A stretch of 28,705 nt of DNA from a virus. This document shows, one piece after another, positions 9,636 to 23,063 of the stretch (its first letter is position 1; each line of letters begins with the position of its first letter). Where the stretch lies: positions 1 to 28,705 of the IMG/VR virus record IMGVR_UViG_3300027976_000154; one strand, 5' to 3'. A model generated the notes under the pieces. It ran no database searches, was not told the DNA's origin, and saw nothing but the letters and a program-made list of their open reading frames with translations. The translations under genes and the position numbers were made by a program.

Positions 9636-9663
9636 TTGACGAAATAATATATTTTGATACAAT
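9636..9663 (+). promoter_or_regulatory. Strong promoter before the structured leader
   Basis: TTGACG (9636-9641), a 16-bp spacer and TACAAT (9658-9663) form a near-consensus sigma70 promoter. It begins 7 bp after the fibre-like gene stops and sits about 25 bp upstream of the first leader element, so transcription from it would carry all three tandem elements as a ~240-nt 5' leader into the head/capsid operon. Confidence 0.6.
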
Positions 9664-9687: not shown

Positions 9688-9875
9688 AGAGTTTCTGCGA
9701 AACTTAAAATCGTTGTCCTTGGTTCTTCCTCATCCTTAAAAGGAAAAAATACTGTCAGGCGAGACATTAAACGTCTATTGGTTCACTAATCTATCCTTAA
9801 AGATTTCAAAATACTTCAAAGTTTCTACGAAACTTAAAATCGTATCTTGGTTCGTTAATCTAGCCTTAAAAGATT
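9688..9875 (+). repeat. Structured leader: three tandem copies of a two-hairpin element
   Basis: Three ~60-bp units (about 9688-9745, 9751-9805 and 9818-9875) repeat with a ~65-bp period. Each has hairpin 1 (AGTTTC-tgc-GAAACT in the first; seven pairs in the third; TGTC/GACA in the degenerate middle copy), a linker like TTAAAATCGT..TTGGTTC, and hairpin 2 with an 8-10 nt A/T-rich loop resembling ATCCTTAAA. Hairpin 2 stems are TTCCT/AGGAA (9726-9730 with 9741-9745), AATCT/AGATT (9788-9792 with 9801-9805) and AATCT/AGATT (9857-9861 with 9871-9875). Further copies lie before fibre genes at 20856 and 23005. The last copy ends 37 nt before the ATG at 9913. The rest of the 283-nt gap holds only the promoter and a ribosome site. 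Confidence 0.7.
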
Positions 9876-9912
9876 CTCAAAATTTTAAACTTTAATTTAA
9901 AGAGGAGATTTT

Positions 9913-10686
9913 ATGGCTTACGGTGTAAACGCACCCTTCGGTTTAAGACCAGTTTCATCTATTTCAGGTGGGGCTTGGACCGAGAAGACAACACAATATT
10001 TTATTTGGGCTAACCCAACAGCAGGCTCTGCTTCATATACTTCATCTATTTATGCAGGTGATCCAGTAATCTGGAATACAGTTGTAGGATCAACAATTAG
10101 CGGCGTACCAACAATTGGTTTATATGCTGTTGATAATGCTACAATTGCTAGTGAAATTACTCCAGTACTGGGAGTTTTTGTAAGTTGTGAATATACATTA
10201 CCTAATGGCACTTTAGTACAATCCCCATATTGGCCCGCTTCAACCGTAGTAAGAGGTGGTAGTACTATCAAAGCATTTGTAATCGATGATCCAGATGTAG
10301 TATGGGATATACAAGTATCTACTGCAACTAACGTAGCAAATGATGCAAGATTTGGTGGTACGACTAATCCAGCTGCTACTCTAGCTTATTTTGGTCAAAA
10401 TTTTGGTTTTGGTTTAGCTGGTGGGGGCGGTAACTTACTTCCGAATAACCCTACTGCTGGAAGTACACTTACAGGTCAATCAGCATATTATTTAAATATG
10501 GTAGGTACAACCGCTACAAATAGAATTGTTGCAACACTTCCTTTAAAAGCCTTAGGATATACTCAAAATCCAAATAATGTAATTTATGCGGCTGATGGAA
10601 CTAGTGCAAATCAATTTTTAAATGTAAGAGTTGCAATAAATAATCACGTGTACAGAGTTGGTCAACTCGGTAATACACCTGCTTAA
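9913..10686 (+). CDS. Head protein, likely capsid decoration
   Basis: The product is 257 residues, beta-rich and Ala/Thr/Gly rich. The start MAYGVNAPFGLRPVSSISGG and the order that follows (DPVIWNTVVGST, LGVFVSCEYTLPNG, VIDDPDVVWDIQVST, NPNNVIYAADG, LNVRVAINNHVYRVG) match a family of virion proteins encoded directly before the major capsid protein in alphaproteobacterial podophages. The family knowledge I have is positional and structural, not mechanistic: a capsid-surface (decoration) or minor head protein is the best guess. A strong ribosome site (AGAGGAG) precedes the ATG, and the gene follows the promoter and structured leader, so high expression is expected. The next gene, the capsid protein, starts 21 nt after its stop. 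Confidence 0.65.
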   Translation: MAYGVNAPFGLRPVSSISGGAWTEKTTQYFIWANPTAGSASYTSSIYAGDPVIWNTVVGSTISGVPTIGLYAVDNATIASEITPVLGVFVSCEYTLPNGTLVQSPYWPASTVVRGGSTIKAFVIDDPDVVWDIQVSTATNVANDARFGGTTNPAATLAYFGQNFGFGLAGGGGNLLPNNPTAGSTLTGQSAYYLNMVGTTATNRIVATLPLKALGYTQNPNNVIYAADGTSANQFLNVRVAINNHVYRVGQLGNTPA

Positions 10687-10707
10687 TTAACAAAGGAGAA
10701 ATAATAT

Positions 10708-11616
10708 ATGATTAATACCGGTCAAATCGCTCAATTACTTCGTCCTGGTTTAAAGGCAGTTTTTGGGCAATATCCAGCATATCCTGAACAATGGACAGAG
10801 ATATTTAAAACATATCAATCAGATAAGTACCAAGAAATAGAAGTTGAAATGAAGTATTTAGGTCCTGCTGATATTAAACCAGAAGGACAGCCTATTGCTA
10901 CTGATTCAATGGGACAAAGGATTGTAACTAACTATGTTCATAAAAGGGTAGGGCTTAGCTTTACTATTACTAAAGAAGCTGTTGAAGATAATCTTTATCA
11001 AAGTCAGTTTCCTCAACAAGCAATTTCCCTTAGGAATTCATTAAGAGTAACTAAAAATATTCTTGGTTCTAATGTGTTAAATAATGCATTTAATGCAGCT
11101 TATCCGATTGGAGATGGTCAGTCAGTTTGTTCTATTGCTCATCCAATTGACGGGGGAACATTCTCAAATGCTTTTAGTACTGGTGGTGCTACTGTAGATT
11201 TTAGTGAAGCAGGTATTGAACAAGCTATTATTTTGATTCAAAAATTTCCAATGCAAAGCGGGATTTTATCTCAAACAATGGCTAAAAAGCTCATTATACC
11301 TCGTGAGCTACAATTTGCAGCCTCAAGGCTTCTAAATAGTGCATTCAGGGTTGATGTAGCCAACAATGATATAAATGCTTTATATCATAATGACTATATT
11401 CCTGATGGATATAAGGTAAATCAGTTTTTAACTTCTACTACTTCATGGTTTATTATCACTGATGCAGAAGATGGTTTAAAACATTTCCAAAGAACTCCAG
11501 TAGAAACAGATACATACGTAGATTATGCAACTGATAATGTAATGGCGAAAGCAACAGAGCGTTATTCATTTGGTGTATCTAATCCACGCGCTCTATTTGG
11601 TTCACCTGGCGTTTAA
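10708..11616 (+). CDS. Major capsid protein (HK97-fold, Mu gpT-like)
   Basis: The product is 302 residues. Seen: the N-terminal arm INTGQIAQLLRPGLKAVFGQ (2-21), E-W-T-type loop YPEQWTEIFKTYQSDKYQE, then VHKRVGLSFTITKEAVEDNLY (about 75-95; the peripheral-domain helix pattern of this family), the central KNILGSNVLNNAFNAAYPIGDG, SGILSQTMAKKLIIPRELQFAA (about 188-208, the conserved P-R-x-L-x-x-x-A motif) and the FQRTPVETDTYVDYATDNVMAKATERYSFGVSNPR tail, whose Y-x-F-G-x-x-x-x-R is the usual end. Many such capsids are made without a long cleaved N-terminal delta domain; a separate scaffold gene here agrees with that. A strong ribosome site, AAGGAG, precedes the ATG. A hairpin terminator follows. 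Confidence 0.85.
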   Translation: MINTGQIAQLLRPGLKAVFGQYPAYPEQWTEIFKTYQSDKYQEIEVEMKYLGPADIKPEGQPIATDSMGQRIVTNYVHKRVGLSFTITKEAVEDNLYQSQFPQQAISLRNSLRVTKNILGSNVLNNAFNAAYPIGDGQSVCSIAHPIDGGTFSNAFSTGGATVDFSEAGIEQAIILIQKFPMQSGILSQTMAKKLIIPRELQFAASRLLNSAFRVDVANNDINALYHNDYIPDGYKVNQFLTSTTSWFIITDAEDGLKHFQRTPVETDTYVDYATDNVMAKATERYSFGVSNPRALFGSPGV

Positions 11617-11630
11617 CAAATAAAGAAACT

Positions 11631-11666
11631 AACTAACTTATAGTTTAAAATTACTATGAGTTAGTT
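11631..11666 (+). terminator. Hairpin terminator after the capsid gene
   Basis: AACTAACTTATAGT (11631-11644) pairs with ACTATGAGTTAGTT (11653-11666) through 14 positions (one T-G pair) around the 8-nt loop TTAAAATT. The following AATTTTAAAGG is a weak U-tract that runs into the next ribosome site, so partial termination, which would give more capsid than downstream transcript, is plausible. Confidence 0.5.
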
Positions 11667-11685
11667 AATTTTAAAGGAAATTAAT

Positions 11686-12357
11686 ATGGCTACTAATACA
11701 AAAACAATATGGCAGATAGTAGATTTAACAGCTGTATGTGCTTTGCAAAGTTTAGGATCTACTGGCTCCTTATTATTAAATGGAACCTTAGTCGATAATA
11801 GTATTCCAAATCAAATTTCTTTTATTAGTAATAATTTTATTAGATCGGTTTCTATTACTTCAGGTCAGAATCTTAGTAGTACAACATTTACTGTTAGTGG
11901 TATTCAGAATGGAGCTTTTGTTACTGAAAATATAACAGGACCAAATAATAATACTGTCTATGGATTAAATTATTATGATATTATAACATCTGTAATTGCG
12001 AACGCAGCCATAGCTGCACCAGGGGTTAGTGTAGGTACTGGAAAAGTCGGCTATCTACCATTAGTTCAAGTAAACAATTCTAATGCTAGTAGTTATATTA
12101 ATTATTCATGTTCTGTTTTATTACCAGCTGGTTCTGGTATTAATTATTCATTATTGCAAACATTAGAGAAGGTAAACAATAATTGGATTCCTTTACAAAC
12201 CCAAAATACAATTTTCTTTCCAAGTATGGGATTAACCAATCAGACTACATCCCAAATTGGAAATTCTACTATAATAGTTAGCTATTTATTGTTACATATA
12301 AATAGCTCTACTACTCCTTTAACTGATACTTTGACATTTATATTTACGCAAGCATAA
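11686..12357 (+). CDS. Beta-rich virion protein, paralogue 1
   Basis: The product is 223 residues, rich in Asn, Thr, Ser and Ile. A two-domain beta build is suggested: residues ~1-125 hold ALQSLGSTGSLLLNGTL, SFISNNFIRSVSITSGQ, TFTVSGIQNGAFVTENITG and NNNTVYGLNYYDIITSV then VSVGTGKVGYLPL; the rest ends DTLTFIFTQA. The pattern x-V-S-G-x-x-x-G-x-x-V-T-E-x-I-T-G-P-N-N-x-T-V, followed by S-V-G-T-G, is common in virion proteins encoded after the capsid gene in proteobacterial phages; their exact place in the particle is uncertain. The neighbouring gene at 12387 is a paralogue, sharing a nearly identical 103-bp core. A clear ribosome site (AAAGGA) precedes the ATG. Confidence 0.6.
   Translation: MATNTKTIWQIVDLTAVCALQSLGSTGSLLLNGTLVDNSIPNQISFISNNFIRSVSITSGQNLSSTTFTVSGIQNGAFVTENITGPNNNTVYGLNYYDIITSVIANAAIAAPGVSVGTGKVGYLPLVQVNNSNASSYINYSCSVLLPAGSGINYSLLQTLEKVNNNWIPLQTQNTIFFPSMGLTNQTTSQIGNSTIIVSYLLLHINSSTTPLTDTLTFIFTQA
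11882..11984 (+). repeat. 103-bp near-identical core repeat, copy 1
   Basis: This segment matches 12580-12682 with two mismatches in 103 bp and no gaps (offset 698 bp), although flanking parts of the two genes have diverged strongly. It encodes the F-T-V-S-G-I-Q-N-G ... N-Y-Y-D-I-I core. Confidence 0.9.
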
Positions 12358-12386
12358 TATGAATAAAAATAATAAGAAGGAAAAAT

Positions 12387-13079
12387 ATGTCTAGATATTT
12401 AAAATATGTATTTCCCAGTGTTGATACTCAAGCTGTAACATACACTCAAACGTTAACTGCTCCTGGTAATCTTACTTTGAATGGTAATCTTGCTGATTCA
12501 ATTCATAGTAAAGTGTCTTTCATGACAAATGGGTATTGTCGCTCGGTTTCTTTAACATCAGTAAATGATTTGTCAGTAGCAACATTTACTGTTAGTGGTA
12601 TTCAGAATGGAGTTTTTGTTACTGAAGATATAACAGGACCAAATAATAATACTGTCTATGGATTAAATTATTATGATATTATTACTTCTATTAGTGTTGA
12701 TAGAGCAGTTGCTTTGGTTAGTGTTGGAAGTGGGTTAATTGGGTTTTTTGCATTAATTAATATCGACCCAAATTTAGGTGATGTAAATTATAGTTTAACT
12801 TTAACTTCGAATAATAACGCTAATCAGATACCTACAGCTATTTGGGGCACTAATGATAATATAGCTTTAAATGGTATTACCTACATAGATAATACAACAA
12901 ACAACTATTCTTTAATAGCAATAAAAACCATAAATGCAGTTACTCAATATATATTACCTGTACCACCAGTAGCAGGTAATTCAGTATATCTACCTCTATA
13001 TACTTCATTATTAATAAATCTTGTAGGGACTAATACTACTCGTAATAATAGCATGACTTTAATATTTATACAAATTTAA
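12387..13079 (+). CDS. Beta-rich virion protein, paralogue 2
   Basis: The product is 230 residues and a paralogue of the gene at 11686: the same order of elements (TLTAPGNLTLNGNLAD, KVSFMTNGYCRSVSLTS, TFTVSGIQNGVFVTEDITG, NNTVYGLNYYDIITSI, VSVGSGLIGFFALINI) and a similar end (SMTLIFIQI). The central 35 residues are almost identical to paralogue 1 while the rest is about as diverged as a distant homologue, which suggests gene conversion or strong constraint on the core. It probably forms hetero- or homo-oligomers on the virion with paralogue 1. The ribosome site AAGAAGGA lies just upstream; the intergenic gap is 29 nt. Confidence 0.6.
   Translation: MSRYLKYVFPSVDTQAVTYTQTLTAPGNLTLNGNLADSIHSKVSFMTNGYCRSVSLTSVNDLSVATFTVSGIQNGVFVTEDITGPNNNTVYGLNYYDIITSISVDRAVALVSVGSGLIGFFALINIDPNLGDVNYSLTLTSNNNANQIPTAIWGTNDNIALNGITYIDNTTNNYSLIAIKTINAVTQYILPVPPVAGNSVYLPLYTSLLINLVGTNTTRNNSMTLIFIQI
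12580..12682 (+). repeat. 103-bp near-identical core repeat, copy 2
   Basis: Partner of 11882-11984; the two mismatches are one C/T change that alters Ala to Val and one A/G change that alters Asn to Asp. Confidence 0.9.
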
Positions 13080-13088
13080 GGATTTAAT

Positions 13089-13316
13089 ATGGCACGTAGT
13101 CGAGCTTCAAAGGACGCAATGATAGAAAGTGGAGATAAATGGATTAAGAATGCGATAAATCCTAATACTAAAGGAGCACTTCATAAAACATTAGATGTAC
13201 CTGAGGGAGAGAAAATACCAGAGAAAAAACTAGAAAAAGCTGAGCATTCTAAGAATCCATTAACAAAGAAAAGGGCTATTTTTGCTGAAACACTGAAAAA
13301 ATTTAGACATAAATAG
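13089..13316 (+). CDS. Small basic phage protein
   Basis: The product is 75 residues, strongly basic and helical, with WIKNAINPNTKGALHKTLDV in the middle and KKRAIFAETLKKFRHK at the end. This layout (W-I-x-x-A-I-x-x-P-G-A-L followed by a hydrophilic spacer and a final A-x-x-L-x-K-[FL]-R) recurs in very small proteins near capsid or connector genes of many phages. Function is not established; DNA or capsid binding would fit the charge. A ribosome site (AAGGA) and the 9-nt gap from the previous gene support translation. Confidence 0.65.
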   Translation: MARSRASKDAMIESGDKWIKNAINPNTKGALHKTLDVPEGEKIPEKKLEKAEHSKNPLTKKRAIFAETLKKFRHK

Positions 13317-13337
13317 TTTTAATAAGGACAAATTCTG

Positions 13338-14390
13338 ATGCCTACTACTTCTAATACGTATAATTTTCAATCTATTGAGGTTGAGTTAATTATTAGAGAA
13401 GCCTTTGAAAATATAGGTATTTTAGGAGAATTTGTTGAATATCAGAAACTTCAATCAGCTACCCGTAGCTTAAATCTTCTATTATTAGAATGGATGACTA
13501 AAAGCATTAATCTATGGACTTTAGAAAGAGATTATTTAGCTATAAATCAAGGACAAGCTGAGTATACATTATCTAATACGGTGAGTAATATAATACAAGC
13601 TAATGTTAGAACTTCAACACGGCAATTAAATGGAACTCCAGCGGCGTCTAGTGGCGTTGCTCAGAATGCTTTTGATGGCAATCCTGCTACATTTTGTGAT
13701 GCAGGTAATAATGGAAATATTTCATATGATTATGGAATTAATGTAACTCAGCAAATTAATTTTGTCGGTATTACTTCTCAAATAACGACCTCTTATTCAT
13801 TAAATGTGGAAACTTCACAAAATAATATTGATTGGACTATCATATATAGCATACCACCACAATCTTTTGCAGGTGGAGTAAATAAATGGTTTGATATTCC
13901 TGTTCCTATTAACGCAAGAACATATCGTATAATAGAAACAAATGGTGCAAATTTAAATCTTCAGGAACTTTATTTTAATAATAATATTTTTGATGTAGTA
14001 ATGTCGAACATAAGTCGTGATGATTATTACTCATTACCAAATAAGATGCTACAAGGACGTCCTAATATATTTTATTATAATAGACATCTTTCTCCAGTTC
14101 TAAGTATTTGGCCTGTGCCAAGTAACTTATATAATTGCATCCAATACACATATAAAAAAATGATTCAGGACGTAGGAGCTCTGACTAATTCTATTTATGT
14201 CCCTTCTAGGTTTTATCCATGTTTAATATGGGGCCTTAGTTGGAGATTAGCTTTAAAATATAATCCTCAAGTAATGGAAATTTTAAAAGCTGAATATGAG
14301 AAGTCATTTCAGATTGTTACCACGGAAGATTCAGAAAATACACCTATTAATATTATTGGTGATTATTCTGCTAATGGTTATTATTTATGA
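13338..14390 (+). CDS. Head-tail connector (P22 gp4-like) with discoidin-like insert
   Basis: The product is 350 residues. The N-terminal part (VELIIREAFENIGILGEF, ATRSLNLLLLEWMTKSINLW, TLERDYLAINQGQAEYTL) and the C-terminal part (NISRDDYYSLPNKMLQGRP, PVLSIWPVPSNLYNCIQYTY, VPSRFYPCLIWGLSWRLALKY) fit the podophage head-completion/tail-accessory family that binds below the portal. In most such proteins these parts are joined by a short turn after the first strands. Here residues about 97-213 form an insert that reads as a coagulation factor 5/8 C-type (discoidin) domain: ASSGVAQNAFDGNPATF, NISYDYG, VGITSQ, then WFDIPVPINARTYRIIETNG and LNLQELYF. These are the usual landmarks (A-F-D-G-x-x-x-T-x-[FW], [IV]-x-Y-[DN]-[FY]-G). 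The gene overlaps the next by 4 nt (ATGA). Confidence 0.75.
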   Translation: MPTTSNTYNFQSIEVELIIREAFENIGILGEFVEYQKLQSATRSLNLLLLEWMTKSINLWTLERDYLAINQGQAEYTLSNTVSNIIQANVRTSTRQLNGTPAASSGVAQNAFDGNPATFCDAGNNGNISYDYGINVTQQINFVGITSQITTSYSLNVETSQNNIDWTIIYSIPPQSFAGGVNKWFDIPVPINARTYRIIETNGANLNLQELYFNNNIFDVVMSNISRDDYYSLPNKMLQGRPNIFYYNRHLSPVLSIWPVPSNLYNCIQYTYKKMIQDVGALTNSIYVPSRFYPCLIWGLSWRLALKYNPQVMEILKAEYEKSFQIVTTEDSENTPINIIGDYSANGYYL

Positions 14391-14734
14391 GCTGGATTAA
14401 TCGTTGGAAAGGTAAACATGTAGTTATCAATCCTAAAGATCCATCCGCTTTAGGGGTTTGTGATGATAGCGGTTTTGATTTTAATCATAAAGACCTAGTA
14501 AAACAGATGGAGTGGAGGGGGAATAACCTTGTGTGGACTGGCTTAATGGTCGGTAAACCTTATTTAGATGTTCCACAAGAACAAAATAGACCACCTCTTG
14601 TTAAGGCAGACCCAAGACCTATAAAAGATGCTAGGCTTCCTACTCCTTATAGTGATCCAGAATACCCACAGGTAGATCCATATAATCAGCTCTTAGCTAA
14701 ATTAAGAACTACTAATTGGGATTGGGAAAATTAA
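14387..14734 (+). CDS. Conserved small phage protein after the connector
   Basis: The product is 115 residues, starting in a 4-nt overlap with the connector stop and so translationally coupled. Seen: SALGVCDDSGFDFNHKDLVKQ (about 20-40), MEWRGNNLVWTGLMVGKPYL (41-60), DVPQEQNRPP (61-70), and a Pro-rich tail with DPRPIKDARLP. Phage proteins with C-D-x-C/S-G-F ... L-V-x-Q-x-x-W-x-G-x-x-L-V-W-x-G-x-x-V-x-x-x-x-x-D-x-P-x-[ED]-Q are frequent next to connector genes; some have a zinc-ribbon-like Cys pair, of which only one Cys remains here. Function unknown. Confidence 0.6.
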   Translation: MSWINRWKGKHVVINPKDPSALGVCDDSGFDFNHKDLVKQMEWRGNNLVWTGLMVGKPYLDVPQEQNRPPLVKADPRPIKDARLPTPYSDPEYPQVDPYNQLLAKLRTTNWDWEN

Positions 14735-14735
14735 A

Positions 14736-17700
14736 ATGTATCAGAATCAATATATTACTAATTCTATGAAGATGAAATATGATGTATTGTATAATTTTAT
14801 CTCACCTGTCACTGGAAAGGTTAATGCCCCTAATGTAGCGCCGAGTGATGCTACATATATATTACAAACTCCAAATGCTTTTCTTCCTAATGCACAAGCA
14901 TTAAATTCATTAGAGAATGGGATTCTTTTTAAGGAAGATGGAGGAGTTTTAATTACTAAAGGCAAACTTGATAGAAGTAATTTACCATATTTGACACACA
15001 ATAAAATTTGGATAGGTGATCCTGCAAATATTGCGGTTGAGGCAAGTGGCATAAATGGTGATACAGGTGATACAGGTGATACAGGTGATATAGAGGATAC
15101 TCTAAATAATATCCTTGGATTTGCCGGTGTTAGTTTATTAACAGCTTTAGGAATATTAGCAGCTATAGAAATTTTTTCGAATGGAAGCACCTCTTCCAGC
15201 TCAGAAACTACTAATCAAATGACCCTAAATTTAAATATGAATATGGCTGGGAATAGAATAACAAATTTAGCCTTATCCCCTCTTGCAGATTTTGATGGAG
15301 TTAGTGCTAAATGGGTCTGGGATTTATTAGATAGTAAAGTTCTTATTAATTCAATGGGAATTAGCAGCCTTACAGCTGCTAATATTATTCCAAATCTTGA
15401 TATTTTAGGATCAATTCAAGAATTTAATTATAATCAAAATTTATCTACTTTTAGATTAAGTAATAACTTTATTTCAACTAATTATATCTCTAATCAAACA
15501 TTGTTTGAATTTAGAAATAATTTGTTGAGCGGTTTTAGGTGGATTCATAATACTAATATTACCGATACTTACGGATCTTTAACCTTACAAAGTTTTGTTA
15601 ATGCTTTTAATAGTGGTACTAATTTAGTAAATTTTACTACTAGTGGAATAGGTACATTTGTGCCTTTAAAATTTTATAATTCAATAGGCACAAATTATGT
15701 AGCTTTACAAGCTGGAAATGTAATTAGCAATGTTACATGGACATTACCAATTACTGATGGTAGCAGCGGACAAGCACTTATTACAAATGGATCAGGTATA
15801 TTATCATGGAGTAGTACGGGAGTGGGAAGTGTTACCCTTATTAACACTGGGATAGGTTTAACTGGCGGCCCAATTACTACAACAGGAACAATAAGCTTAG
15901 CTAATACAACAGTAACTCCTGGAAGTTATACATACAGTAGTTTTACTGTTGATGCTCAAGGAAGACTTACGGTTGCTTCAAGTGGAACAATGCCTTTATT
16001 ACCTGCTAATAATTTATCAGATTTAAATAGTGCATCAACAGCAAGAACAAATTTAGGATTAACTAATATTGCTACTCAAAATGTTACACAGCACTATGTT
16101 TTAGTAGGGGGTGCATCGAACAGTATTACATCTTTAGGACTTACGAATGGCCAATTATTAATTGGATCAACTAATAATGATCCACTAGCAGCAATACCTA
16201 CCAATGGTACAAATATAAGCTGGTCTACTGGACCTGGAAGTTTAACAGCAAATTTGACTGGTCAAGTTGCTTTAGCAAATGGTGGAACAAATGCTAATTT
16301 AACGGCATCCAACGGCGGAATATTTTACTCTACCGCAAGTACAGGGGCAATTTTAAGTGGTACATCAACTGCGAGTCAAATTTTGTTATCAGGTGCAAGT
16401 AGCGCTCCGACTTGGTCAACAACTACTCATCCTACAAATACAACAATTAATCAAATATTATATTCATCTGCTAATAATATAATTTCAGGATTAACTACAG
16501 CAAATAATGGGGTACTTATCACAAGTTTAGGAGGAGTGCCATCTATTGGAACAACTCTCCCAAGTGCTGTACAAGGAAACATAACATCTGTGGGAACAAT
16601 AACTAATGGCACATGGAATGGTAGTACAATCACTGTTCCCTATGGAGGGACAGGAATAGCCAGTGCAACAGCCTATGCAGTATTATGTAGTGGCATTACA
16701 TCTACAGGAGCATTTCAGTCAGTATCTGGGGTAGGCACTAGTGGCCAAGTCTTAACTTCTCAAGGAGCAAGTGCTTTACCGACTTGGGCTTCTCTGTCAA
16801 CATTTGGTGTTACATCGATTACAGGTACGGCTAATCAAGTATTAGCCAATAGCACAAGTGGATCACCACAAATAGGGGCTGTAACTTTAACGTTACCACA
16901 AAGTATAGCAACTACTTCAAATGTACAATTTGGTAGTATAGTAACAACTAATTTAACAACTAATGGAACTGTAGCATTTCCTAATAATCTGTGGATGTAT
17001 GGTCAGGCATCTACTAATCTCCGTAGTTGGTATATCGCTGGAAGTGATATGTATTGGGAGCTGGGAGGGAATGGTGCTTTTCATTGGCGTAATTCAAGTG
17101 ATGTAGATGTCGCTACTCTTGATTATCTAGGACAGGCCGTATTCAAAAAGTTAGGTTTGAATGGCGTAGGAACAGCAAGTACTTTAGAAATCGTTAGTGG
17201 TAATGCTCAAATAGGTTTTGTTACTGGAACTAGTGCGCCAACTAATGGCTTAATTGTTAGTGGAAATGTTGGAATTGGAACTATAACTCCAAATTCTACA
17301 TTAAACGTTTATAATGCAAGCTCTCAATCCAACGGTACAGCCATGAGCACTACCTTTCGTGCCGAAGGACCGACCCTTCTCTCAAGTATTGGGAATGAAT
17401 CTTCAATCGCAAGTTTTATTTCGCGATCTGCTGTCAGTACCTCATCTGCTGTCAGTAACTCAATCGCATTAGGCATTAGCAGTTATCAATTTACAGCTGG
17501 AAGTACTTGGACTAGTTCATGCTTTATTGTGGGGATGGATGTAGATAATTCAAAGCGTGCAGGTTCATGGATGGCATTTTATCAAACTGGGATTGGATTT
17601 AATATAATTGATACAAATGTTGCGTATAGATTTTATGTTTCTGATTCAAGTAATATCTATGGCATGTTAATAAATGGTACAATAGCGCCAGCTGGCAATG

Positions 17701-18527
17701 CCGTGGGCTTTACCTGTCAAAATTACTTATCTCCTACCGTTAAAGCATCTGTTTTTGGTCTTAGTTCTCAATGTACTTATAATTCTCCAAGCGCTGGGAT
17801 GCATGGTGCTTATGGGCTTTATATTAACACTTCTATTACAGGCTCAGGAACAATTGATAATATTTTTGGAATTTATGTAGGAGATGGAATTGTTTCTGGG
17901 CCTACTGTTACTCTTGGTTATGGAATATTTGTTGCTCCCGTTGGCTATTCGGATACTTGTTATGGTCTTTATGTTAGCGAAGTAGGAACCGTTACCAATA
18001 AATATTGCGCTTATTTTGGTGGGAAAGTGGGGATAAAATCAACTCCAAACTACACTCTTATATTAGGAGCTGATGACGCTGGTAAAACGAGTACAGCAGT
18101 ATGGTTTATAACTTCAGATAAAAGAATTAAGAAAAATATTAAATCAATTGAAAAAGCTATTCCTTTAATAAAGGAAATAAGACCTATTAGTTTTCAGTAT
18201 ACTCAGGAATATTGCAAAGATATTGAAGCAGACGAAGAAACTATTAACTATGGTTTTGTTGCAGATGAGATCCAAAATAAAATTCCTAATTGCGTTAATG
18301 ATTCTGAATTGCATTGCTATGGAATGAAATATAATGGTGTAGATGAAAAAGGGAGATATAAACCAGAGCCCCCTAGATTAGTTGAAAATCTAAAGACTTT
18401 TAATATGCATAATGTTATAATTTTTACTATAAAAGCTGTTCAAGAGCTAATAGAACAAAATGAGTTCTTACAAGCTAGAATCGATATACTGGAATCCAAA
18501 TTATTCGCAGGAGCAAGAAATGTCTAA
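14736..18527 (+). CDS. Long tail fibre/spike with self-cleaving S74 chaperone
   Basis: The product is 1263 residues. Order: a fibre start (VAPSDATYILQTPNAFLPN, about 35-53); a short collagen-like (Gly-Asp-Thr)x3 run (108-118); a hydrophobic stretch able to span a membrane (about 125-147); N-M-A-G-N-R-I-T-N-L-A shaft (about 170); a long beta shaft with VTLINTGIGLTGGPITTTG, TVDAQGRLTVASSG and TVPYGGTGIASATAY units; and a C-terminal intramolecular chaperone (Peptidase_S74). The last starts at TSDKRIKKNI (Ser about 1127, predicted autocleavage site), continues through IRPISFQY, NYGFVADEI and VIIFTIKAVQELIEQN, and ends in a coiled coil. Family knowledge: S74 domains assemble trimeric fibres then cut themselves off. 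The stop overlaps the next ATG by 8 nt. Confidence 0.85.
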   Translation: MYQNQYITNSMKMKYDVLYNFISPVTGKVNAPNVAPSDATYILQTPNAFLPNAQALNSLENGILFKEDGGVLITKGKLDRSNLPYLTHNKIWIGDPANIAVEASGINGDTGDTGDTGDIEDTLNNILGFAGVSLLTALGILAAIEIFSNGSTSSSSETTNQMTLNLNMNMAGNRITNLALSPLADFDGVSAKWVWDLLDSKVLINSMGISSLTAANIIPNLDILGSIQEFNYNQNLSTFRLSNNFISTNYISNQTLFEFRNNLLSGFRWIHNTNITDTYGSLTLQSFVNAFNSGTNLVNFTTSGIGTFVPLKFYNSIGTNYVALQAGNVISNVTWTLPITDGSSGQALITNGSGILSWSSTGVGSVTLINTGIGLTGGPITTTGTISLANTTVTPGSYTYSSFTVDAQGRLTVASSGTMPLLPANNLSDLNSASTARTNLGLTNIATQNVTQHYVLVGGASNSITSLGLTNGQLLIGSTNNDPLAAIPTNGTNISWSTGPGSLTANLTGQVALANGGTNANLTASNGGIFYSTASTGAILSGTSTASQILLSGASSAPTWSTTTHPTNTTINQILYSSANNIISGLTTANNGVLITSLGGVPSIGTTLPSAVQGNITSVGTITNGTWNGSTITVPYGGTGIASATAYAVLCSGITSTGAFQSVSGVGTSGQVLTSQGASALPTWASLSTFGVTSITGTANQVLANSTSGSPQIGAVTLTLPQSIATTSNVQFGSIVTTNLTTNGTVAFPNNLWMYGQASTNLRSWYIAGSDMYWELGGNGAFHWRNSSDVDVATLDYLGQAVFKKLGLNGVGTASTLEIVSGNAQIGFVTGTSAPTNGLIVSGNVGIGTITPNSTLNVYNASSQSNGTAMSTTFRAEGPTLLSSIGNESSIASFISRSAVSTSSAVSNSIALGISSYQFTAGSTWTSSCFIVGMDVDNSKRAGSWMAFYQTGIGFNIIDTNVAYRFYVSDSSNIYGMLINGTIAPAGNAVGFTCQNYLSPTVKASVFGLSSQCTYNSPSAGMHGAYGLYINTSITGSGTIDNIFGIYVGDGIVSGPTVTLGYGIFVAPVGYSDTCYGLYVSEVGTVTNKYCAYFGGKVGIKSTPNYTLILGADDAGKTSTAVWFITSDKRIKKNIKSIEKAIPLIKEIRPISFQYTQEYCKDIEADEETINYGFVADEIQNKIPNCVNDSELHCYGMKYNGVDEKGRYKPEPPRLVENLKTFNMHNVIIFTIKAVQELIEQNEFLQARIDILESKLFAGARNV
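16607..16780 (+). repeat. 174-bp exact direct repeat, copy 1
   Basis: Identical base for base to 18861-19034. It encodes the T-V-P-Y-G-G-T-G-I-A-S-A-T-A-Y fibre unit through to G-A-S-A-L-P. Mismatches begin immediately on both sides. Confidence 0.95.
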
Positions 18528-19281
18528 AAGTACTATAACAGTTGCGGGTATTAGTCCTGCTCTTAATATTTTAGGTGCAACACAACAATTAAATTTCAGT
18601 CAAAATTTATCTACCTTACAGATAAACAATAGTTATATTCCTACGAGTTTAGTATCAACTCAAACTAATTCAGAGTTTAGGAATAATTTGTTATCAGGGT
18701 TTCGGTGGAATCATTTAACTAGTAATACTGATACATATGGAACGTTAACGTTACAGAGTTTTGTTAATGCTTCCTCTACGGGAACTAATTTAATGACTTT
18801 TAATAGTAGTGGAGTAGGTATATTTGCTCCTCTTAATATGAATAGTCAAATCATTAGTAGTGGCACATGGAATGGTAGTACAATCACTGTTCCCTATGGA
18901 GGGACAGGAATAGCCAGTGCAACAGCCTATGCAGTATTATGTAGTGGCATTACATCTACAGGAGCATTTCAGTCAGTATCTGGGGTAGGCACTAGTGGCC
19001 AAGTCTTAACTTCTCAAGGAGCAAGTGCTTTACCAATCTGGAGTGCTCCTATAGTTGGAACGGCAACTTTAAACGGTACGACTGCTGTTACAATTACTTC
19101 TTCAGTAGTAACAACTAATTCCATAATTAATATAACTAGAAACACAGGCTCAAGCGCTCTTCCATCATCAGGAAACGTTGGAATTTTAAGTGTAGGTAAT
19201 ATTAGTGGTACAACGTTTCAAGTTGTTTCTACAAATGCATCAGATACTTATAGATTTACTTGGCAGATTATTAATCCTTAG
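18520..19281 (+). CDS. Short tail fibre, paralogue of the long fibre's shaft
   Basis: The best start is ATG 18520 (253 residues): GCAGGAGCAAG gives a ribosome site, and the ATG overlaps the S74 fibre stop (ATGTCTAA). An in-frame start farther upstream lies inside the previous gene. Residues about 10-90 (SPALNILGATQQLNFSQNLS, FRNNLLSGFRWNHLT, DTYGTLTLQSFVNAS) are paralogous to residues about 215-300 of the long fibre. Residues ~114-172 are encoded by the 174-bp exact repeat. The C-terminal ~75 residues (TATLNGTTAVTITSSVV ... FRFTWQIINP-like end) are a tip shared in outline with the 654-aa fibre. It lacks its own S74 domain. Directly after the stop lies the left arm of a 23-bp inverted repeat. 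Confidence 0.75.
   Translation: MSKSTITVAGISPALNILGATQQLNFSQNLSTLQINNSYIPTSLVSTQTNSEFRNNLLSGFRWNHLTSNTDTYGTLTLQSFVNASSTGTNLMTFNSSGVGIFAPLNMNSQIISSGTWNGSTITVPYGGTGIASATAYAVLCSGITSTGAFQSVSGVGTSGQVLTSQGASALPIWSAPIVGTATLNGTTAVTITSSVVTTNSIINITRNTGSSALPSSGNVGILSVGNISGTTFQVVSTNASDTYRFTWQIINP
18861..19034 (+). repeat. 174-bp exact direct repeat, copy 2
   Basis: Partner of 16607-16780 (offset 2254 bp), in the same reading phase relative to the encoded fibre unit. Confidence 0.95.
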
Positions 19282-19303
19282 TGAACTACCAAACGGCTAA
19301 AGA
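19281..19303 (+). repeat. 23-bp inverted repeat, left arm
   Basis: Starts GTGAACTACC and runs to AAAGA. It is the exact reverse complement of 20827-20849, 1.52 kb away, and begins right at the end of the fibre gene (the G of the TAG stop). Its first 10 bases also occur at 20779. Confidence 0.9.
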
Positions 19304-19325
19304 TATTTGGGTTTTACGGCGTGTT

Positions 19326-19784
19326 TTATAAATTTTCATATTCTTCAATTTGATTATTAGTACCTAACAAGTCAGTACTCATATTTGTATTAATAGGAGC
19401 AATTATAATAGCAGGGTCAATATTAATACCAGATACAGATGTTCTTGTTATATCGGTAATTGAGATAGTATCACTGTCCTCGGAATAAATTCGATCATTA
19501 CTTTGAGAAGGTTTACCACGTGACATAATCCATTCTTCACATTCAGTAGCTTTTTCATGTCTCCAATTATTACAATCTTTTATCTTAGTACTTGTCCAAT
19601 TACAACAATCACTTAATTTAGTAGAAATACACAAGCAACATTCTGAAATTTTATGATAAATAAAACATGCTGCTCCTATTTGGCAACAATTTGATGTACC
19701 TATGGGCACAATTGGTACAATTGGAACTGCACAAAAACAAGAACACAGGCAATTGCATATTAAATTAATAAAAAAAGAACACAT
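19326..19784 (-). CDS. Cys-rich protein with four 11-residue repeats
   Basis: The product is 152 residues on the strand opposite to its neighbours. Residues 1-29 are hydrophobic and Cys-rich (MCSFFINLICNCLCSCFCAV, then PIVPIVPIG), like a membrane anchor. Residues 42-85 are four tandem 11-mers: IYHKISECCLC, ISTKLSDCCNW, TSTKIKDCNNW, RHEKATECEEW, with consensus x-x-x-K-x-x-[ED]-C-x-x-[WC]. Lys is at 45, 56, 67, 78 and Cys at 49, 60, 71, 82. The rest is a polar, acidic Ser/Thr/Asn-rich tail. I recognise no family. Eleven-residue periodicity fits a helix whose faces stay in register, as in membrane-binding or hendecad helices. The gene lies inside a cassette bounded by a 23-bp inverted repeat; AAGG precedes its ATG. 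Confidence 0.6.
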   Translation of the reverse strand: MCSFFINLICNCLCSCFCAVPIVPIVPIGTSNCCQIGAACFIYHKISECCLCISTKLSDCCNWTSTKIKDCNNWRHEKATECEEWIMSRGKPSQSNDRIYSEDSDTISITDITRTSVSGINIDPAIIIAPINTNMSTDLLGTNNQIEEYENL

Positions 19785-19922
19785 AACTAACCTTGTATTT
19801 TACAATTATTATTTTAAAAATCTTATTCCATTATTTTTAGGAAAGCAAACACATAAAAAAATAAATTTTTTTCTATGATTTTAAAAAATGCTGTACAATG
19901 AGTTAGTTAAAAAAGGATAAGT

Positions 19923-20162
19923 ATGTCTAATCAAGATTTAATTAACTATCAGATTAGTTTAGAAGCAAATAATACTGCGCAAATTAATACGTTAGCTCAA
20001 GCAAATGTTCAGCTTGATAACAATATAGCTCAGTTAAATCAAACCATTAGCCAATTACAAGCGCAAATTAGTGATAATAATACAAAAAGCGCTACTTTAG
20101 CTGCTGGTAATGTGATGATAGAAGAAACAATTGTATTTATTCCACCAGATATTGGCAAATAA
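19923..20162 (+). CDS. 79-aa coiled-coil protein
   Basis: A small protein whose residues ~10-55 form a coiled coil (QINTLAQANVQLDNNIAQLN, QTISQLQAQISDNN) rich in Gln, Asn and Ala, with a short C-terminal part ending IVFIPPDIGK. Ribosome site AAAGGA lies before the ATG, and TACAAT at about 19894 could be the -10 of a promoter in the divergent 138-bp gap shared with the minus-strand Cys-rich gene. It resembles small trimeric whisker or fibre-accessory coiled coils, but this is a guess from composition. First + strand gene of the cassette. Confidence 0.55.
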   Translation: MSNQDLINYQISLEANNTAQINTLAQANVQLDNNIAQLNQTISQLQAQISDNNTKSATLAAGNVMIEETIVFIPPDIGK

Positions 20163-20199
20163 TATAATATAATATTTTAATTAAAAAAAGGTAAAAAAT

Positions 20200-20409
20200 A
20201 TGGCACTTCCAATAAATACTGAATCATTAAAAAGTCTTTCTAATATGATTATAGAATGCAAACACGCTGAACAATTAGGCATTCAGGTTTTTAATAACTT
20301 AAATAATACAACAGCTGAATATTCTGAAATATGTACTGCATTTAAAGATTCTTGTGAAAAAATTCACGATGAAGTAGAAAAAATAAAAAGAATGATCCCA
20401 GGTTTATAA
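20200..20409 (+). CDS. 69-aa hypothetical helical protein
   Basis: A small mostly helical protein: LKSLSNMIIECKHAEQLGIQ, NTTAEYSEICTAFKDSCE and KIHDEVEKIKRMIPGL. It has three Cys (residues about 18, 46 and 52). No family recognised. An A-rich ribosome site (AAAAAAGGT) precedes the ATG. It sits in the inverted-repeat-bounded cassette, 4 nt before the next gene, so the two are probably co-translated. Confidence 0.5.
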   Translation: MALPINTESLKSLSNMIIECKHAEQLGIQVFNNLNNTTAEYSEICTAFKDSCEKIHDEVEKIKRMIPGL

Positions 20410-20413
20410 TGTT

Positions 20414-20782
20414 ATGGGAGTATATGTTAGTTATTTAAGCATTCCTTTTGCAAATATTAGCAATATTCCCCAAACTGTTTTAACTGCAAATACACATACA
20501 TTATTTGTTAATGGTATTATGGTTTGTAATAAAGGACCTACTGTTATGCGATTTAATTTACAAAAAGTAAGAACTCAAATTTCTCCAATTACAATTAATT
20601 ATATTAATGAACTTGAAATACCAGCATATGGAGTTATTGATGTAATAGCAGCACTTGGATTGCAAATTTTTCTTCAATATAGTTTGATACCAGCTATAAG
20701 CGATTCTCTTCAATGTTTCTCTAATGGTTCTACACAGAAATTTGATTGTGAGATTTCTTATACGCAGCTTAATGAGACGTGA
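20414..20782 (+). CDS. 122-aa beta-rich hypothetical protein
   Basis: The product is beta-rich, with strands VYVSYLSIPF, TLFVNGIMVCNKG, TVMRFNLQKVRTQ, ITINYINELEIPAYGVIDVI, LQIFLQYSL and KFDCEISYTQLNET. The arrangement resembles a small beta-sandwich that could sit on a virion, but I cannot name a family. It starts 4 nt after the previous stop and has no strong ribosome site of its own. Its TGA stop lies within a second copy of the GTGAACTACCA motif (20779-20789), exactly as the short-fibre stop lies beside the first copy. Confidence 0.5.
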   Translation: MGVYVSYLSIPFANISNIPQTVLTANTHTLFVNGIMVCNKGPTVMRFNLQKVRTQISPITINYINELEIPAYGVIDVIAALGLQIFLQYSLIPAISDSLQCFSNGSTQKFDCEISYTQLNET

Positions 20783-20849
20783 ACTACCAGCATTTGGCTT
20801 CTTTGTTAGAACGGGTAGCAAAATGGTCTTTAGCCGTTTGGTAGTTCAC
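20779..20849 (+). terminator. Stem-loop closing the cassette, including the right arm of the 23-bp inverted repeat
   Basis: GTGAACTACCA (20779-20789) pairs with TGGTAGTTCAC (20839-20849), 11 bp. The span 20827-20849 is also the right arm of the 23-bp inverted repeat whose left arm is at 19281-19303. After the stem comes AAAAATAAAG and then the leader element. Position after the last cassette gene suggests termination, though the U-tract is absent on the + strand. Confidence 0.5.
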
Positions 20850-20855
20850 AAAAAT

Positions 20856-20915
20856 AAAGTTTCTGCGTAACTCAAAAACGTATTCTGGTTTTCTTTCTTA
20901 TCCATAAAAAGAATC
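20856..20915 (+). repeat. Two-hairpin leader element before fibre 20952
   Basis: Same architecture as 9688-9875. Hairpin 1 is AGTT/AACT with the conserved TCTGCG loop; hairpin 2 is TTCTT (20895-20899), loop ATCCATAAA, AAGAA (20909-20913). It ends 37 nt before the ATG at 20952. The right side AAGAATC (20909-20915) could instead pair with GAGTCTT (20942-20948; one mismatch) just before the start codon. Confidence 0.7.
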
Positions 20916-20951
20916 TTTTATTAAAATTATTTATTAATTAAGAGTCTTTTT

Positions 20952-22916
20952 ATGCCTAAAGCACCTATTACTAGTTTTTCAAGTATTTCTATACAGTCAG
21001 ATTATGTAGTTAATAATAACTATGGATTATACTTACCTCAAGTAACTACTATACAAAGAAATCGCGTTCCAACTAATGTACTGAGAAATGGTGCAATTAT
21101 TTACAATGTAACTACAAATAGTTTACAAAGTTACATTAATGGAGCATGGGTTGATATATACGGGGGAGTACCGCCAGCTAATTATATTGTTGGTCCAAAT
21201 GTATCAGTTGTAAATAATATAGCAGTTTTTAATAATACTACAGGTAATCTTGCCACCGATAGTGGCGTAACGATAGGTCGAGTTCCTGTTCTAGGATTAT
21301 TTGCATTACATAGAGATTTTCCTAATACTAATGTTAATGAAATTAGTCAATTAGGGCATCTTAAATTTAGCGGTAGCGGTGGGATAGGAACTATTTATGT
21401 AGATAGTTTATCACCAGTACATTTTGTAGAAAACAATTATAGTGGCTCAAATTATCAAATTAGTTCTGTATTTAGTGGAGACCTTCCTTACGCTTCAACT
21501 ACGGTATCAGCATTAGTAGAACTTCAAACTACTACTGGAGCGTTATTATTATCGAGATTAACAACGGCCCAAAGAGATACATTAACAGCTCCTGCTAGTG
21601 GTATGGTGCTTTATAATAGTAGTATAAATGCCTTTCAAGGATATGCGAATGGAGCTTGGGCACTTTTAAGTGGTGGTGGAACTGTAACATCTATAATAGC
21701 TGGGACGGGATTAACTGGTGGAACCATTACTACTTCAGGTACGATTGGTTTAGCCAATACAGCAATTACAGCTGGTAATTATACGGCAGCTAATATTACA
21801 GTAGACGCACAAGGACGACTTACTGCCGCTTCAAGTGGTGGAAGTGGTTATGTAAATGGTCCTGGAAGCGCTGTATCTAATAATGTAGTAACATTTGATG
21901 GAATTACAGGTAAATTAATTAAAGATAGTGGGTTAGGTATAGCAAATGTGTATTATGCAGGCAATCCTACTTATTTAATAGATACAAATGGATCTACAAA
22001 TAACTTTTTTGCTGGTACAGGGACTGGTACAAGTACAACAATTGATGGTACTGACAATACTGGTGTAGGAATTAGGGCTCTCTATACTAATCTAGTTGGA
22101 GTTAAGAATACTGCCATAGGAAGAAATGCATTATATGGTAATACTTCGGGTACATTAAATACAGCGGTAGGATTTGAGGCAATATATAATAATACACTTA
22201 ATGGGGTTTGTAATACAGCAATAGGAGTTTGGGCATTATATAATGGGAGTAACAATAGTACAGCTATTGGGTGTTATTCTTTGTATCAAGATAACACTGG
22301 AAGTTATAATACAGCTATTGGACATTATAGCGGTCATAATTACTCGTACTTAAATTGTACTTTTCTTGGCGCATATGCTGATGCTTCTCTTTTTGGACTG
22401 AGTAATGCATGTGCTATTGGTTATCAGGCAACTGTTGGAATATCTAATTCTATAGTTTTAGGTAATGGTTGCAATGTTGGAATAGGTAAGAATTCACCCG
22501 CTTATGCATTACAAATAGGAAGAGATAATTCTATTATACCTTTATTATATATGGCCTCTACAAGTGTTCCATCTGCACCAGGAACGGCTAGCGATGGTAT
22601 TTACTCTGTTAGCTCAGGCAAGCCTACATTTACTAGTGGTACTACTGAATACCAAGGAACTATTGTAACTGTTAAAAATAATATTACAGCTGGAATTAGT
22701 AGTACTAGTGGGGGAACAGCAAATTCTAATAATGTAGTAATTTCTACAGCTGCCGTACAAAGCAATTCATTAATTTTTATACAACATATAGATAATATTG
22801 CTGCTGTTTATGGAGCTGCATTTACTGTAGGTAATATTATTGCAGGAACATCATTTGAAGTATGGTTTAATTTAAATCCAAGTGTTTCATTCTCTTGGCT
22901 AATAATTAATCCTTAG
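20952..22916 (+). CDS. Tail fibre with YadA-like beta-roll repeats
   Basis: The product is 654 residues. N-terminal region: MPKAPITSFSSIS, then two copies of the fibre unit N-G-A-[IW]-x-Y-N ... G-A-W (LRNGAIIYNVTTNSLQSY near 50; SGMVLYNSSINAFQGYANG near 220). Next comes the shaft unit GTGLTGGTITTSGTIGLA with TVDAQGRLTAASSG (about 250-300). Residues about 375-510 are tandem beta-roll repeats like those in YadA-type trimeric adhesin heads: NTAIGRNALYGNTSG, NTAVGFEAIYNNT, NTAIGVWALYN, STAIGCYSLYQD, YNTAIGHYSG. The C-terminal ~80 residues are a tip ending SWLIINP, similar in plan to the end of the short fibre at 18520. No S74 domain. A structured leader precedes it and a hairpin terminator follows its stop directly. 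Confidence 0.75.
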   Translation: MPKAPITSFSSISIQSDYVVNNNYGLYLPQVTTIQRNRVPTNVLRNGAIIYNVTTNSLQSYINGAWVDIYGGVPPANYIVGPNVSVVNNIAVFNNTTGNLATDSGVTIGRVPVLGLFALHRDFPNTNVNEISQLGHLKFSGSGGIGTIYVDSLSPVHFVENNYSGSNYQISSVFSGDLPYASTTVSALVELQTTTGALLLSRLTTAQRDTLTAPASGMVLYNSSINAFQGYANGAWALLSGGGTVTSIIAGTGLTGGTITTSGTIGLANTAITAGNYTAANITVDAQGRLTAASSGGSGYVNGPGSAVSNNVVTFDGITGKLIKDSGLGIANVYYAGNPTYLIDTNGSTNNFFAGTGTGTSTTIDGTDNTGVGIRALYTNLVGVKNTAIGRNALYGNTSGTLNTAVGFEAIYNNTLNGVCNTAIGVWALYNGSNNSTAIGCYSLYQDNTGSYNTAIGHYSGHNYSYLNCTFLGAYADASLFGLSNACAIGYQATVGISNSIVLGNGCNVGIGKNSPAYALQIGRDNSIIPLLYMASTSVPSAPGTASDGIYSVSSGKPTFTSGTTEYQGTIVTVKNNITAGISSTSGGTANSNNVVISTAAVQSNSLIFIQHIDNIAAVYGAAFTVGNIIAGTSFEVWFNLNPSVSFSWLIINP

Positions 22917-22954
22917 TACACTACCAAAAGCTTTTTAGCATTTGGTAGCGTGTA
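22917..22954 (+). terminator. Hairpin after the 654-aa fibre
   Basis: TACACTACCAAA (22917-22928) pairs with TTTGGTAGCGTGTA (22941-22954) with a 2-nt bulge; it starts at the base after TAG. The CTACCAAA core is the same as in the 23-bp inverted repeat after the short fibre, so both fibre genes once carried related terminators. Confidence 0.6.
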
Positions 22955-22971
22955 TAATAAAAATTATCTAT

Positions 22972-22998
22972 AAATTATAATATAATATATTATAATTT
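22972..22998 (+). repeat. 11-bp AT-only inverted repeat
   Basis: AAATTATAATA (22972-22982) and TATTATAATTT (22988-22998) are exact reverse complements with a 5-nt loop. It contains several TATAAT-like hexamers and lies just upstream of the leader element at 23005, so it may hold a -10 box, but no convincing -35 was seen. Confidence 0.5.
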
Positions 22999-23004
22999 AT
23001 TAAC

Positions 23005-23063
23005 AAAGTTTCTGCGCAACTTAAAAGCGTATTTTGGTTTTCTTCTTATCCGCAAAAAGAATC
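23005..23063 (+). repeat. Two-hairpin leader element before fibre 23096
   Basis: Hairpin 1 is AAGTT/AACTT around TCTGCGC; hairpin 2 is TTCTT (23043-23047), loop ATCCGCAAA, AAGAA (23057-23061). It ends 33 nt before ATG 23096. AAAGAATC (23056-23063) is also the exact complement of GATTCTTT (23086-23093), which overlaps the ribosome site AAAGGA, giving a possible second, start-blocking structure. Confidence 0.7.

Follow-up and report, generated by a model that had tools for sequence, protein, structure and literature searches.

A repeated leader element, best read as two tandem pseudoknots, before the virion genes of an uncultured phage clade

In the window analysed here (the whole 28,705-nt stretch of IMG/VR virus record IMGVR_UViG_3300027976_000154), a unit of 57 letters occurs five times, always on the + (sense) strand, and the comparative sequence data strongly support reading each copy as two tandem H-type pseudoknots, PK1 followed by PK2. 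The initial annotation had proposed a cis-acting RNA made of two hairpins before head and fibre genes. Its cis-acting RNA is borne out by covariation, strand-specificity, exceptions to pairing that are G.U but not A.C, and predicted promoters upstream; its simple two-hairpin fold is unsupported, and two pseudoknots fit better. The phage is uncultured, and its clade is known only from metagenomes.

The five copies and their genomic setting

All five copies counted in the initial annotation were recovered in sense orientation, together with the stems that it quoted (TTCCT/AGGAA once, AATCT/AGATT and TTCTT/AAGAA twice each). Its distance of 33-37 nt from the last copy of each group to the ATG is likewise reproduced, the measured values being 36, 37 and 33 nt. 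The scores below come from a covariance model with helix-2 pairs only (R1), and the E-values of the four scored window units (4e-13 to 3e-7) refer to a search over 0.92 Mb.

9636..9663, + strand: predicted sigma-70-like promoter TTGACG-16-TACAAT, its -10 preceded by TG, lying about 26 nt ahead of unit 1
9690..9746, + strand: unit 1 (PK1 + PK2; R1 50.6 bits, E 3.4e-7); PK1 helix 2 TGCGA:TCGTT, PK2 helix 2 TTCCT:AGGAA
9753..9805, + strand: unit 2, GUC subtype, whose orthologues occupy the corresponding position in relatives; PK1 TGTC:GACA with AGGCG:CGTCT, PK2 AATCT:AGATT
9820..9876, + strand: unit 3 (R1 72.6 bits, E 1.3e-11; covariation); PK1 helix 1 9820-9823:9831-9834 (AGTT:AACT) with L1 9824-9825; PK1 helix 2 9826-9830:9840-9844 (TACGA:TCGTA) with L3 9835-9839 TAAAA; PK2 GGTT 9849-9852:AGCC 9862-9865 with L3 9866-9870; PK2 helix 2 9857-9861:9871-9875 (AATCT:AGATT)
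9877..9912, + strand: A+U-rich spacer with UUUAAA repeats and the Shine-Dalgarno sequence AAAGAGGAG
9913..10686, + strand: 257-aa gene (MAYGVNAPFGLRP...) directly 5' of the major capsid gene; orthologues of the 257-aa gene carry the leader in relatives
10708..11616, + strand: major capsid protein (phrog_371), from family match and relatives
20779..20849, + strand: strong stem-loop (GTGAACTACCA...TGGTAGTTCAC) with no U-run, 8 nt before unit 4 (z -3.6 in a 181-nt region)
20858..20914, + strand: unit 4 (R1 80 bits, E 4e-13); PK1 helix 2 TGCGT:ACGTA, PK2 helix 2 TTCTT:AAGAA
20952..22916, + strand: fibre-like gene with an MPKxxIT N-terminal domain
22991..22996, + strand: -10-like TATAAT, 10 nt before unit 5
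23007..23062, + strand: unit 5 (R1 73.4 bits, E 9e-12); PK1 helix 2 TGCGC:GCGTA, PK2 helix 2 TTCTT:AAGAA
23096..23764, + strand: second fibre-like gene, with the same MPKxxIT N-terminal domain as the first

Unit 2, the second tandem copy, belongs to a divergent subtype (TGTCAGGCGAGACATTAAACGTCT) with its own orthologues; it is unscored by R1 in the window and was recognised through a repeat search and by eye. Scanning the window for the PK1 pattern with at most 3 mismatches gave four true sites and one overlapping antisense match, which arises from the partial palindrome of that pattern, whereas shuffled sequences lead one to expect 0.03.

The window encodes terminase, portal, GroES-like, capsid and fibre proteins. 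Isolates matching its capsid protein at 27-44% identity, e.g. Pelagibacter phage HTVC023P, share the gene order terminase, portal-size gene, GroES, small gene and capsid. Units sit only before virion genes, namely the gene preceding the capsid gene and the fibre genes, usually as one unit before fibre genes and up to three before the capsid operon. The 257-aa protein has no family match, and its AlphaFold model (pLDDT 55, a low-confidence all-beta fold) is too poor to name it; the weak best fold matches of that model, none of them significant (E>=0.19), include capsid-stabilising proteins.

The predicted promoter at 9636-9663 keeps its position in relatives. Most units have a predicted promoter upstream; a few stand between genes of one operon with no visible promoter. 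A perfect extended -10 (TGnTATAAT) is present upstream in 18 of the 58 distinct leaders, against 0.6 expected. The initial annotation listed transcripts starting downstream of the elements as a refuting outcome; the predicted promoters are upstream instead. Several leaders carry a plain stem-loop between promoter and unit. The spacer from the last unit to the start codon, a ribosome-binding region, measures 27-47 nt (median 37) and is 86% A+U, with TTTAA occurring 1.52 times per leader compared with 0.40 in the remaining leaders of these phages; TTAAA is also enriched.

Several further features of the window were recorded. Recurrent stem-loops with a CTACCA/TGGTAG core and no U-runs stand at the ends of fibre-region genes (19281-19320, 20779-20849 and 22917-22953) and are possibly processing sites or atypical terminators. 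The terminase large-subunit gene (1137-2998) is interrupted by an insertion of about 250-300 nt: the first part runs into a Hint/intein-like stretch at its end (EEVLVKDKGLIKAQDVVPGDDLIL, stop), and the second part restarts at an ATG of its own. The frame is uninterrupted in all close relatives, and the L070 terminase has an intein-like insertion; the insertion in the window is possibly a degenerate or split intein. Duplicated segments, up to 95% identical, occur in and between structural genes (15372-15671/18538-18837, 16599-16794/18853-19048 and 11882-11998/12580-12696). A fibre protein with an S74 endosialidase-chaperone domain is encoded at 14736-18527, overlapped by a gene (18460-19281) that ends in a K1-lyase C-terminal domain.

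The fold and its covariation

PK1 (AGUU-UC-UACGA-AACU-UAAAA-UCGUA) is composed of a 4-bp helix 1, a 2-nt loop 1, a 5-bp helix 2 and a loop 3 of five A-rich nucleotides, lengths that suit the classical H-type fold. PK2 (GGUU...AAUCU-AGCC-UUAAA-AGAUU) combines a 5-bp helix 2 with a helix 1 formed by GG:CC and a weaker extension (GGUU:AGCC, AACC or AUCC). The "hairpin 1" of the initial annotation corresponds to one helix of a pseudoknot whose other helix had not been separated out; the stem of its "hairpin 2" is PK2 helix 2, and both sides change at all five pairs.

Two alignments were used: a sequence-only alignment (113 matches, 66 distinct), made independently of the structure model, and one aligned with the structure model (139 matches, 96 distinct), which leans towards that structure. 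In the former, 97.8% of the PK1 cells are paired, versus 92.7% after shuffling and at most 36% when slid, and PK1 helix 2 exchanges its pairs at columns 8/31 (A:U 35, G:U 16, G:C 13) and 11/28 (A:U 50, C:G 12, U:A 2). In the latter, PK2 helix 2 shows double changes at 5/5 pairs, and PK1 helix 1 covaries (U:A 77/G:C 8 and U:A 79/C:G 4), a signal that appears once the AGGU:ACCU and AGUC:GACU types are included. A swapped-arm test of PK2 helix 2 gave 5.58 for the real arms, compared with a mean of 4.84 and a maximum of 5.16 in 500 shuffles.

Under a tree-based null (a simplified R-scape), the two top-ranked of 300 pairs in the sequence-only alignment are proposed pairs of PK1 helix 2, with a best E of 0.017. 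In the structure-model alignment, proposed pairs hold ranks 1-5 of 1431, the best two having E 0 (no null value as high) and 0.03, so that three tests pass E<0.05; the close relationship of the phages keeps the covariation per pair modest. Exceptions to Watson-Crick pairing in PK1 helix 2 comprise 33 G.U against 1 A.C, which argues for selection on RNA and not on duplex DNA. The corresponding counts in PK2 helix 2 are 23 and 17, a low ratio that is partly due to register slips in the alignment. Covariation thus survives the addition of homologues, the refuting test named beforehand in the initial annotation, and on this comparative evidence PK1 helices 1 and 2 and PK2 helix 2 are selected as RNA pairs. 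Helix 1 of PK2 we infer and do not regard as proven, since its support comes from two near-invariant G:C pairs, whose GG and CC are kept jointly or lost jointly (listed exceptions and misparsed rows were checked by eye).

A rival long hairpin, AGTTTC-TNC-GAAACT, was rejected, with no double changes and a T:A pair that fails in 16 of 63 sequences. The helices are short and A+U-rich. A minimum free energy fold computed for the triple leader with pseudoknots disallowed was uninformative, its stability not exceeding that of shuffles (z -0.78), and a generic pseudoknot descriptor scan was discarded as unspecific (20 matches scoring >=16, versus 7-13 in shuffles). Variants of the fold were also noted: in the first tandem unit of four relatives (L024 5063-5113, L011 2545-2594, L043 1287-1335 and L045 8998-9048), a plain short-loop hairpin replaces PK2, and GG and CC are both gone; in another (L014 14628-14705), an additional hairpin (GTAATATA...TATATTAC) separates PK1 from PK2.

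Distribution among relatives

A search with the window capsid protein returned 77 metagenomic loci, and in close relatives the gene before the capsid gene has one to three units in front. R1 recognises 139 units at 85 loci, the window included, and R2, a sequence-only model that covers just the unit's first half, gives 113 matches; a pattern scan yielded 64 viral stretches, nearly all of this clade. Among 17 longer records, 14 carry units, mostly three to six apiece. In a whole-record scan of these longer records, every convincing unit adjoins virion genes, and in the records of 53-55 kb no convincing unit falls in the early half. Distant relatives (about 43% capsid identity) are without the unit, and two loci, L048 and L050, hold degenerate versions seen by eye and unscored by R1. 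One relative, G007 (L139 14379-14621), encodes a Tad2-like (Thoeris anti-defence) protein, along with RecT, HU, SSB and an MT-A70 methylase.

Among isolated phages, blastn gave chance matches only, and no isolate bears the element at that sensitivity. Across bacterial and archaeal genomes totalling 257 Gb, the pattern matched 9 times versus about 15 expected (our own estimate, from 17.5 specified bases); this is chance level, and a host origin was rejected. Rfam 15 contains no family that matches at the units, even at permissive thresholds, and the searchable papers describe no tandem-pseudoknot phage leader, in agreement with the earlier statement that no element with this sequence had been described.

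Possible function and comparison with known systems

We tentatively place the probability that the element acts in post-transcriptional control of virion mRNAs at about 0.4. Helix-2 sequences vary freely, while the loops and most of helix 1 (AGUU, UC, Y-W-AAA, GG/CC) are constant, a pattern pointing to a common factor that would recognise shape. Taken together with the narrow range of distances to the start codon, the distinctive spacer and the presence before several operons, this leads us to favour control by such a factor. The unit would serve as the leader RNA of virion mRNAs, folding into two adjacent H-type pseudoknots on which a phage or host RNA-binding protein may dock; the docked factor would then regulate how ribosomes reach the neighbouring unstructured start region, or how that region decays, and the effect would be stronger where units stand in tandem before the capsid operon. 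In this way the element may coordinate late genes, as the initial annotation had suggested. Among the 17 records, no trans-acting partner could be tied to the element by conservation: SSB is found in 6, including the near-complete ones carrying units, and a cold-shock-like protein was rejected as partner, its gene being present in 2 and not conserved.

The closest precedent is the gene 32 operator of T4, T2 and RB69, in which a leader H-type pseudoknot is followed by about 40 nt of unstructured A+U-rich RNA containing UUAA(A) repeats and the ribosome-binding site (PMC535899, PMC3014915). T4 gp32 nucleates on the pseudoknot and spreads over the UUAA(A) repeats, which is how the proposed factor might work. 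Like that operator, the unit places a pseudoknot, here with both PK1 helices covarying, upstream of the ribosome-binding site, and an A+U-rich stretch of UUAA(A) type extends from it to the start codon. Unlike it, there are two pseudoknots per unit, one to three units and a different sequence, and the units precede several virion operons instead of the SSB gene, SSB genes lying elsewhere.

The next reading in order of plausibility, which we consider unlikely though worth keeping in view, is a passive 5' stabiliser and spacer. Compact pseudoknots at the 5' end, much as 5' stem-loops do on other phage mRNAs, would shield the abundant virion messages against degradation and leave their start region accessible, and no protein dedicated to binding them would be involved. 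The distance from the predicted start site to the unit is often about 2-15 nt (8-21 nt when counted from the -10), some leaders have an extra 5' stem-loop ahead of the unit, and the genes behind most copies probably encode the most abundant proteins. However, several leaders, that of the window included (about 20 nt), have a long 5' tail, some copies are internal to operons, and the conservation of loops and helix 1 exceeds what a steric role needs.

Less probable again is processive antitermination, in which the unit, folding as it emerges from RNA polymerase, would let the enzyme read through terminators throughout the long late operons. The units do resemble HK022 put, a two-part RNA of about 60-70 nt that sits just downstream of PL (PMC9378689): in most leaders they are promoter-proximal, bipartite RNAs of about 60 nt with long operons downstream, and they recur inside operons. 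Yet put consists of two bulged stem-loops with a triplex, whereas the interleaved helices of the units covary; it acts on early operons; and its spacing to the start codon is irrelevant, the constrained distance seen here not being required by antitermination. The late region also shows no excess of U-tract terminators (9 found, 9.1 expected), which tells mildly against this reading.

It is improbable that the leader carries a riboswitch for a metabolite or a small processed RNA resembling ToxI of type III toxin-antitoxin systems. ToxI has a 25-nt core with a 4-bp stem 1 (PMC8860590), and the units share with it H-type pseudoknots in a row, that stem length and an A-rich loop 3; compact H-type pseudoknots with such a loop are typical of small aptamers as well. 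Unlike ToxI, the copies are not near-identical, their stems differ, and virion genes lie downstream in place of a toxin gene; moreover, there is no visible expression platform, Rfam match or host counterpart. The alternative offered in the initial annotation, a protein-binding site in duplex DNA with paired inverted repeats (an operator or phage-specific promoter element), would suit the inverted repeats, fixed arrangement and nearby promoters but is strongly disfavoured and very improbable, given the covariation with its G.U over A.C bias, the interleaved pairing, the restriction to the sense strand and the position downstream of ordinary -10 boxes.

Within post-transcriptional control, a more specific version, which we regard as a long shot, is that a double-pseudoknot operator common to all virion operons lets a single phage RNA/ssDNA-binding protein, e.g. 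a phage SSB titrated by replicating DNA, tie their translation to how far infection has progressed. If true, the T4 gene 32 switch would here have a trans-acting counterpart that works genome-wide and times capsid and fibre synthesis.

Control by DNA phages of their own mRNAs through pseudoknots is very rare, and a 2010 review regarded T4 gene 32 as possibly the sole viral example of a pseudoknot in translational autoregulation (PMC3014915). The element is of a known kind, the phage leader pseudoknot, and its motif is new, tandem and common to several operons: one short motif stands before several virion operons across a clade in which natural variation suffices to support the fold. For RNA biologists, it offers a compact tandem pseudoknot to solve, and it gives phage biologists a hypothesis to test, that of a post-transcriptional layer acting on the expression of capsid and fibre genes.
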